64,000 bases of DNA, taken from NCBI RefSeq assembly GCF_964019385.1, contig NC_088649.1, positions 10,270,025-10,334,024 on the forward strand, in the 5' to 3' direction. A program made the translations under genes and the position numbers. How positions within the stretch are numbered: the stretch's first letter is position 1; every line of letters begins with the position of its first letter. This document shows positions 22,101-26,404 of this stretch, piece by piece. Under the pieces are notes generated by a model. The model worked only from the letters and a program-made list of their open reading frames with translations. It made no database searches and was not told where the DNA came from. The DNA comes from Sycon ciliatum. Lineage: Eukaryota; Porifera; Calcarea; Leucosolenida; Sycettidae.

Positions 22101-25100
22101 ATGTTCCGCCAGGGCATTTGCGACTTACCTGACAGTGTAGTGTTGAGCCTGGTGGACGATGTGCTACCCGAACTACCGGCTGCAAACACTGTCTACAGGG
22201 CGGTGAAACACTGTCCTGGGTACTCAAAGTGCAAAATACCTCCTTCTCATACTCATGCGGCCGGTAAGATATGATATCTGTTTCTTAAATTTATGATTTT
22301 TCTCGGAATGCCAATATTCGCTTTGTAAAGGGAAACGCTAGTACCCGTATACATAGATAGAGGCTTGCGACCTGTGTTTTAATATTTACTCTGAGTTTAA
22401 TCGGACCTTTGCTTGGCATAAAAAAATCAAGATCAAGGTTGACCAGCCTGAGGACTCGTTCCGTTGTGCCCAGCACGGGCTTGCAACTAGCTGGTTTGCA
22501 GGTGACCGACGCTGTGAATGACCGAGGGTCCTCGACGCTTGTTGTCACCGTCCAGGAGCGACACTGACTCATGCTGCTATCTGGTGTTCCTGTGTTGTAA
22601 CAGGTACCATATTCCTAGTGTTTGTCGTTCTGCAAACGGAGCGTCTCTGTACGTTTGTATCCGTGGTGATGTTCGGGCCTGGAGAGCACTATATAAGTGA
22701 TGCTCCTCAGGCACAATCTTCCTCAGCCTACTAAAGCTCAACTGACTCGTGACATGACGAGGGGTGAATTCCCCGAAATACTGTGTATAGAGTAGGGAGT
22801 CGTGCTTTCTTGCCGGTTTGCCGAGTTCACGGTTCGATGGACACTAAAATAAAAAAATGTTCATGTTTGGTATCAGAGAGGTTCTGCTTCACAAGAAACG
22901 TAGAGAAATCACGTGGAAAGCAGGTGTTTGGGTTAGAGTCTACGGCTTCGCGTGTTTTGGGTCAAGATTTCTACGCTGATGAGGTTTTCTACATTGAGGC
23001 ACACGTGAAGAAAATTCACATGGATCTGCTGGATATCATTCAAATACAGGCAGAAAACTGCCAAATATGGACGGGGAAATTCCCAGTACACATTCAACGT
23101 GATTTCTCTACGTGAACGTAGAGCAGAACAGGTTTTCTTTCATACCGACCAACCACGAACATCCCAATCCCTTGATAAGACATGCAGAATCCCTGGAATT
23201 CTCTCAAAACGCTTGGATGGCATAAAACACGAGAAAAAGAGCTATTCCCGCCCAAAAAAGGTTCCACGGCACATGATTCTGGACTCCGCATACAGCACAG
23301 TTCGATCAGTCGGCGGGTGCCTAGCGCGCCTGTCGGTGCAGATCATGCAGGCTAGGCTGGTCAAGTATGGGAAAGAACTGTGCAGAGTTCGAACTTCGTG
23401 AATGCACCGTACATACGGGGTATAATATTATTTGGAAAACGGGATAATGGAGGCGAGTCGCTGGAGCTTTCAGGAAAAACCTGGGTCAGGCAAAAAATGT
23501 GACTTTTCCTGGAGTTTGCTTGAAATCTCCGGGACCCCGGGAGTATTGATGTTTTTCCGGGATTTTCCCGCGAAAACCGGGAGGCTTGACCTGTATGTTC
23601 TTCACGTTACGGGCCCGCGAAGAGTTCCCGGAATTCTTCGCGCCGTATTCCCGTAACGTAGGGCATCACTACTGTTTTGCAAGGGCTGTTGTTTGGGCAA
23701 CATCGTGGCTGATGCTATGAAAAGAAGGATTGTATATCCATGAGTGAAAAGGTGTTATGCCCACGTGTTTGTTCCTGACATATCTGATTGATAAAAATAG
23801 TATTGTGTGTATGTGTGTCCGTCCGTCTATCTGCTTTCTGTGTTCGTATGTGTTTGTTTTGTATGCTGTCTTGTCTATAGATGTTGGGGTGAGTTCTGGC
23901 ATGCAGTGTTCGGCATCATCTGGTGAGTTTTGTATGATTTGGTTAAGATCATTCATCACTGACCTCATTGTTCTGCTACCTGTGTTGTAACAAATACCCT
24001 ATTCCTAGGACTCCTGGGAACTGTTCCCACTGCCTTCTGCCTTGCTGTCTCTTTAATGCTGTCTCTTTCGCTCACTATTCTCTCTCTCTCTCTCTCTCTC
24101 CCTCTAGCTCTCTCTCTAGCTCTCTCTCTAGCTCTCTCTCTAGCTCTCTCTCTATGTCTCTCTCTTTCTCACCTTCCCCCTCTCTAGCCCTTTCCCAAAG
24201 ATGCTCGTCACCGTTTTCTCAACTTTTCGTTGTTTTTGAAGAAATTGCAACTTTCGCAACCTTCTTCATTTTCCCGAACTACTTTGCAACTTTTCCGCAA
24301 CCTTCGCCCCATGGCATGGGGTCCAAAGGCATGTCGGACAAATTTATACTCGCTCATTTCATTTCAGAGAAACAGTAGGTCAACAGAAGTTACGATATGT
24401 GCATTCCCTTTTCCGTGCACTGGAATGATGTAGGATACATGCAATAGGCTACTGGCACTGTGTAAAGTGGTGGTTCACAGCAAGAAGGGTGTAGAGTTTG
24501 CTGTCACTGCACTAAGCAAAGTCTTCTGCTATTTCTGCTCCTTTTTTTGTGGTTTTGCACAAGAACCCTCCAATTTTTTTAAAGTTGCAATGTTAGCAAC
24601 TTTTGAGCTTTTTCTGACAATATGGATGCGATTTCAGCAACTCACACTTGTTTTGGCATTGTTGCGAAAAGCTTAAGTTGCGAAAAATTATGGCATCTTT
24701 GGGAAAGGGCTACCCCCCCCCCCCCCCTGTCTATCTGTCTGTCTGTCTGTCTGTCTGTCTATCTATCTTTCTATGCATGCATGACTATCTCTATGTGTAT
24801 ACTTCTTTCTCTCTCAATTTCTCTTTCTCTCCGTCCTTCTCTATTAATTTTATTTTTTCCCACATTTTGTAAGGGTTGGGTATGCTTAGACACTCTTGGA
24901 CTCTTGTTGATTAACCCTTTGTGTACGGACTGTACAACTTTCGATCCCCTGGGATCGAAACTTTTCAAGATTTCAATCGATCGTAACTCAGGTATTTTCA
25001 AAAACTAAGAGATGTAGGTCGAAGAGAAAACTCCCAGCTGTCCATTGAAACAATCGCTGAAGCGCTCTGATGTGCGGTTCTGGGAATGTGTGTGTGTGTG

Positions 25101-26404: not shown

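Follow-up and report, generated by a model that had tools for sequence, protein, structure and literature searches.

A CARD-like exon between inverted piggyBac-type MITE ends recurs in about ten flank groups of the genome of the calcareous sponge Sycon ciliatum

Exon shuffling has long been invoked for multidomain animal proteins, and the agent that moves the exons has rarely been caught. DNA transposons are known to supply new host exons by intron insertion in the case of transposase-domain capture. Here, we describe a TTAA-flanked element from the calcareous sponge Sycon ciliatum that carries a complete CARD-like coding exon between two inverted copies of one end of a miniature inverted-repeat transposable element (MITE). 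Unlike in transposase-domain capture, where the new domain comes from the transposase, the domain carried here is of a host signaling type. The element lies in a window of 64,000 nucleotides (RefSeq GCF_964019385.1, NC_088649.1, forward-strand positions 10,270,025 to 10,334,024; contig C8 of the 538-Mb genome), by which we mean the whole stretch of DNA analyzed, and where it contains the fifth coding exon of a predicted gene.

The closest published kind of element is the animal Pack-TIR, a DNA transposon with terminal inverted repeats (TIRs) carrying host sequence. Of 370 such elements, 208 were hAT and 115 TcMariner, and the word piggyBac occurs 0 times in the text as available (Tan et al. 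2021, PMC8277862). Their multicopy families are explained by recurrent transposition, with distinct target duplications in a fly family, and some are transcribed as chimeras, one family showing signs of positive selection (PMC8277862). The sponge element shares with them the TIR transposon architecture, and its cargo is putatively of host origin; however, whereas the captures described there become retained introns or parts of untranslated regions (PMC8277862), the cargo here is a symmetric, in-frame coding exon lying in sense orientation beside several gene families. There is also a likeness to the soybean CACTA element Tgm-Express1, in which five unrelated gene fragments in one mutant allele, internal to the TIRs, splice as extra host-gene exons in mixed patterns; its abstract, by contrast, reports no recurrent in-frame domain gain (PMC1947982). 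Pack-MULEs and gene-fragment Helitrons, named in the same source (PMC1947982), likewise duplicate gene pieces, but they belong to other superfamilies, whereas two copies of one piggyBac-type MITE end are present here. Compared with these published systems as available to us, the piggyBac-type ends, the symmetric in-frame exon, and its repeated landing beside CARD-type, NTPase, and COR exons are new. Going by titles and the openings of abstracts, we found no piggyBac-type mobile coding exon in the open PMC literature, a scope that leaves preprints and most subscription journals outside.

In the window, the element proper occupies positions 24915-25880 (966 bp) with a TTAA at each side, and its parts and neighboring host exons are as follows.

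24911-24914, no strand: left TTAA, target-site duplication; a single TTAA stands here in the empty paralogue
24915-25080, plus strand: left arm, homologous to positions 1-181 (counting the TTAA) at the left end of L049, one of the copies of a common MITE flanked by TTAA; 90% identity over 181 columns
25081-25408, plus strand: (TG)n run and about 200 bp of intron within the element, up to the acceptor AG
25409-25702, plus strand: mobile exon 5, CARD-like domain, 294 bp, phase 1-1, preceded by AG and followed by GT, on reading by eye and on translation
25703-25732, plus strand: donor GT and short intron (30 bp) within the element
25733-25880, minus strand: right arm, an inverted second copy of the same MITE end, positions 1-153 counting the TTAA; 93% identity over 153 columns
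25881-25884, no strand: right TTAA
21910-22263, plus strand: host exon 4, phase 1-1, upstream neighbor of the element
26088-26404, plus strand: host exon 6, the last exon, a distant paralogue of the mobile exon (DNPF family)

The arms form two inverted repeat pairs, 24911-24996 with 25799-25884 (94% complementary) and 24993-25049 with 25735-25791 (86% complementary). Read base by base, the locus agrees with the initial annotation, which had placed exon 5 and both of its splice sites between TTAA-bounded inverted arms. The resemblance it noted between exons 5 and 6 also holds, the two having a common DNPF start and 28% identity across the domain, as do the phases of 1-1, which we read by translation for exon 5 and by eye for the end of the exon preceding exon 4, both ends of exon 4, and the start of exon 6. 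Since exon 5 is in phase 1 at both sides, its sense insertion into a phase-1 intron would add a whole domain and leave the frame intact.

The arm sequence is common in the genome. A 38-base pattern of TTAA plus arm returned 183 matches at no more than 3 mismatches (87 forward and 96 reverse), against 0 for a backward control, an excess over chance. The one exon-free copy that was read, L049, is a 626-bp element with TTAA at both sides, whose left end is the arm sequence and whose right end is unlike it, with only a short tip in common. Its interior has 305 first-look candidates genome-wide, and all 40 that were scored are at least 96% identical. On this evidence, the ordinary element looks like a young, abundant MITE whose two ends differ, and the package with the exon has two left ends, inverted relative to each other. 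In 25 of the 27 exon copies read, the upstream arm stops at MITE position 175-181 (it is lost in the other 2), and in 22 of the 27 the downstream arm stops at position 152-153, the others having lost or shortened arms. That these inner breakpoints are common to copies with different flanks points to one package, formed once and then moved.

At the DNA level, the exon matches the genome at least 40 times (47 candidates, 40 of them scored), with 93 to 100% identity, on contigs C1, C4, C5, C8, C11, C12, C14, and C262. The copies read, 20 in ten-kb loci and six in shorter loci in addition to the window, fall into about 10 flank groups. Four C8 loci are whole-gene paralogues with kilobases of match to the window, and at the 16 ten-kb loci on C1, C4, C5, C11, and C12, homology with the window is confined to -498 to +479 relative to where the exon starts, a span running from arm to arm. 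Flank-to-flank comparison of 21 loci gives six groups whose element-adjacent sequences are unmatched between groups, with variation inside C1, where single loci such as L045 have only part of the flank in common with the others. The six shorter loci (further C1, C11b, C14a, C14b, and C262) were separated by eye on short flanks and then by alignment, which for the four remaining groups returned only a match of C14a to itself, a stretch of 42 bases that C14a has in common with C4, and a weak match of C11b to C8 over 86 bases, distant from the element in C8. Segmental duplication was considered as the means of spread among the six groups aligned over 10 kb and was ruled out, with homology ending at the arms, while duplication within C8, C5, C1, C11a, and C14a is accepted. 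We observe TTAA at both sides in at least one copy of C8, C5, C1, C11a, C12, and C14a, and only the right TTAA in C11b and C262. In C4, the right side reads TTAT and the left arm is damaged; C14b no longer has a right arm, nor the outer tip of its left one; and several C1 copies have damaged ends or an altered TTAA. As in the Pack-TIRs, the package is thus multicopy with distinct insertion flanks (about 10 groups, C4 and C14a possibly being one). Group representatives differ by 0.5 to 8% in the upstream intron and by 2 to 9% in the downstream one (C14b excluded, as its downstream sequence is not arm), and at such low intron divergence the moves look recent. The region C1:11.25-12.8 Mb holds 22 of the 40 listed exon copies, most of those read there lying between a CARD exon and a P-loop exon.

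The genome search for the package that the initial annotation had proposed therefore found it recurring in different flanks with common inner arm breakpoints, and its proposal of mobilization by a transposon gains from this, from the TTAA ends, and from the empty C8 site described below: on these genomic comparisons, the exon evidently moves together with the element. The simpler alternative it had allowed, that two separate decayed MITE insertions chanced to flank an old native exon that was later copied by gene duplication, would draw on the abundance of the MITE (the 305 candidates above) and on its ordinary copies having one such end; among the 100 pattern matches listed, all of them exact, 77 have no exon copy within 2.5 kb, and none of these 77 has another of them within 20 kb. 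We consider it very improbable, given the six groups without common sequence adjoining the element, the inner breakpoints common to most copies, and a C8 paralogue that is free of both exon and arms.

This paralogue emerged from a genome search with the joined C8 flanks (one TTAA). The 5 filled C8 loci match this query as 1-59 plus 56 onward, with an overlap of exactly TTAA, whereas C8:10045532-10045679 matches it without interruption over 1-148 at 95%, with a single TTAA at the insertion point and no element. It is the sole armless C8 paralogue found in this genome, where we had looked for a gene without the arms that keeps exon 5; downstream, it has a copy of exon 6, 91% identical to that of the window, and no mobile-exon match is listed there. 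Joined C1 flanks gave 216 candidates, and of the 40 scored matches 17, all on C1, extend across the junction and cover the query completely or almost completely: 13 over 1-192 at 90 to 97%, two over 1-188, and two at 80 to 81%. Sixteen of them lie at 11.35-12.11 Mb and one at 72 Mb, while filled loci alongside match one part only, which suggests that the 16 are sites without the element.

The exon domain is predicted to form a six-helix bundle of the death fold, with CARDs as top fold matches, and it may serve in signaling. The exon has no match in Pfam, the CARD profile included, and nothing convincing among PDB sequences; we therefore name the domain CARD-like rather than CARD. It belongs to a very large host family of CARD-like "DNPF" exons that also lacks a Pfam match, with at least 150 members scored in each of two genome-wide searches and many of them locally clustered, e.g., at C5:37.1-38.5 Mb and on C9, C12, and C14. 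Among the matches listed, none outside the elements exceeds 64% identity to the mobile exon. Four exons at C12:18946637-19008053 reach 62 to 64%, near a partial 91% copy at C12:19076166, and this group is a possible donor family. Alternatively, the exon may have been captured in the C8 gene, the empty C8 site being then a product of precise excision and not the ancestral state. The piggyBac superfamily does excise footprint-free, the C8 gene has a DNPF exon 6 of its own, and the C8 copies cluster in the tree, which is unrooted and so does not give the direction. Exon 6, however, is only 28% identical to exon 5, and the C12 exons are closer relatives outside any element; we regard a C8 origin as improbable.

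In all 27 copies read, the exon is 294 bp long with an open 98-codon frame and the flanking AG and GT kept, and a protein search returned 40 full-length matches (1-96 or 1-97) free of stops, along with two partial ones. Neutral simulation on the tree predicts a stop in a mean of 8.4 of the 27 tips, and only 2% of 4000 runs ended with zero stops. The same copies show 20 distinct gap intervals across 465 intron columns, part of which may be alignment effects, versus 0 in the exon. Under a codon model, the nonsynonymous to synonymous rate ratio (omega, or dN/dS) is about 1.5, not significantly different from 1 (twice the log-likelihood difference, 2 delta lnL, about 3), while a value of 0.5 fits much worse; pairwise dN/dS is above 1 for many pairs and not for others. 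Constraint is thus visible in frame and length, not as low dN/dS: these look maintained, with residues changing freely or diversifying. We do not claim positive selection, because 2 delta lnL against omega of 1 is only about 3.

These data bear on whether the exon is expressed or is passenger DNA in a mobile package, skipped in the mRNA and still open in frame because the copies are young. The low upstream intron divergence between groups and the omega estimate would suit a passenger, as would open frames even in the two groups without a recognized gene. Yet a passenger sits poorly with 27 copies lacking any stop or length change where neutrality predicts stops and the introns carry gaps, with splice sites retained in 27 of 27, and with same-strand neighbors of CARD, NTPase, COR, or DNPF type in 8 of 10 groups. 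We hold the passenger alternative to be unlikely, though the least so of those considered, and the mobile exon is likely spliced into mRNA and used.

In those 8 groups, the mobile exon shares its strand with the nearest exons that were recognized, which are COR, CARD plus P-loop NTPase, or relatives of the mobile exon itself. This applies to the window gene's exons 4 and 6 at 5 of 5 C8 loci, to a COR exon upstream and another exon downstream at 4 of 4 C5 loci (with a Roc piece in 3 of 4), and to a CARD exon and a P-loop exon, one or both, at 8 of 9 C1 loci. A DNPF exon lies downstream on the same strand in C4, on each side in C262, and 1.1 kb downstream in C14b. Pfam recognizes the C1 CARD (E value of 9.6e-10) and the C5 COR-A (39.7 bits, cutoff of 35.3), whereas the C5 Roc falls below its cutoff. 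In C1, the donor is in phase 1 in 6 of 6 copies and an in-phase acceptor is present in 7 of 7; the acceptors in C5 and C4 are also in phase 1. The window gene had been labeled Roc-COR, a label that we could not confirm: on 15373-16197 Pfam returns only P-loop hits below threshold, and on 20378-21397 it returns none; comparison of the window with the Roc and COR exons of C5 gave nothing at E values up to 1, and host protein pieces from C5 and C1 likewise lack any significant match there.

Assignment to piggyBac type follows from the TTAA duplication and the CCC ends. TTAA is found at both sides in at least one copy of 6 of 10 groups, and in filled C8 loci the two pieces that match the joined flank overlap by TTAA; most copies whose arms are intact have CCCTTT at their ends, and ends beginning with CCC are a trait of the piggyBac superfamily. 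To this extent the piggyBac label of the initial annotation stands, although the transposase matches listed include none with matching ends. Of 483 candidates for the piggyBac transposase (PF13843), 116 were scored, many of them tied in score and with open frames, which would fit recent activity of several families. The 281 bp ahead of the transposase at L054 contain no matching end. Window positions 1-634 are the C-terminal part of another match, C8:10269579-10270658, with a stop-free open frame of 595 amino acids, and no CCCTTT end occurs in the 900 bp after window position 600.

A hammerhead ribozyme within the element was suggested by CTGATGA...GCCGAAAC at window positions 25200-25245, from a likeness to the core, and was rejected: Rfam returned no hammerhead, and most copies compared have CTGACGA. 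The only two Rfam matches in the element are both far under their gathering scores.

We propose that two inverted copies of one piggyBac-type MITE end came to flank a one-domain CARD-like exon with its own splice sites, a capture that we infer. The outer ends would then have acted as a new nonautonomous transposon, inserting with TTAA duplication and landing in about 10 places. Three of these landings adjoin exons of families without detected mutual similarity, namely the window gene (C8), a Roc-COR gene (C5), and a CARD plus P-loop NTPase, NLR-like gene (C1), and local gene duplication would afterwards have multiplied the enlarged genes.

Several observations weigh against this explanation, in addition to the omega estimate and the possible alignment effects among the intron gaps. 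At the 100 exact ends listed, none of the 116 scored transposase matches comes closer than 11 kb, both lists being incomplete. The right flanks of C14a (L008 and L052) and C4 (L044) have 42 identical bases at differing distances from the element, so that the two may represent one insertion, with C4 as a rearranged copy of the C14a insertion; alternatively, these bases may be a small repeat. The flank in C1 is a dispersed repeat in its own right, and TTCA stands in place of TTAA at the only empty C1 site that was read. No empty site was found for C5, and the left C5 flank recurs at other loci, often ending at the same TTAA, like the edge of another repeat. The upstream donor in C5 looks to be in phase 0, and no convincing intermediate exon was found between COR and the element there. 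As regards the C1 NTPase exon, Pfam matches are sub-threshold only, and "NLR-like" accordingly rests on CARD plus P-loop; its first acceptor AG is absent in 3 of 7 copies, with a second, in-phase AG present in 7 of 7. The neighboring host gene was not recognized in C12 and C11b. Distances are large in C11a (DNPF exon 6 or 10 kb downstream) and C14a (about 6 kb downstream in one copy, 21 kb upstream in the other), and C14b has another DNPF match about 10 kb upstream on the opposite strand. Having weighed these points, we consider a mobile MITE-ended package carrying the CARD-like exon, spread by TTAA insertion and followed by gene duplication, to be the best explanation as a whole, with a probability of roughly 0.87.

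A broader reading, which we rate at barely better than an even chance, is that this composite piggyBac-type transposon has served as a reusable domain cassette, placing a CARD-like exon, sense-oriented and in frame, in three or more unrelated immune-type receptor families that later multiplied; the adaptor specificity of part of the innate-immune repertoire would have been rewired in one lineage, and the domain would now be diversifying. Long-read RNA and comparison with a sister species offer a direct test of the mechanism. All the pieces, from the exon with its mobile ends and target duplications to an empty site and several acceptor families, occur in one genome and are young enough to be read, and together they provide direct evidence of a route by which genes gain domains.
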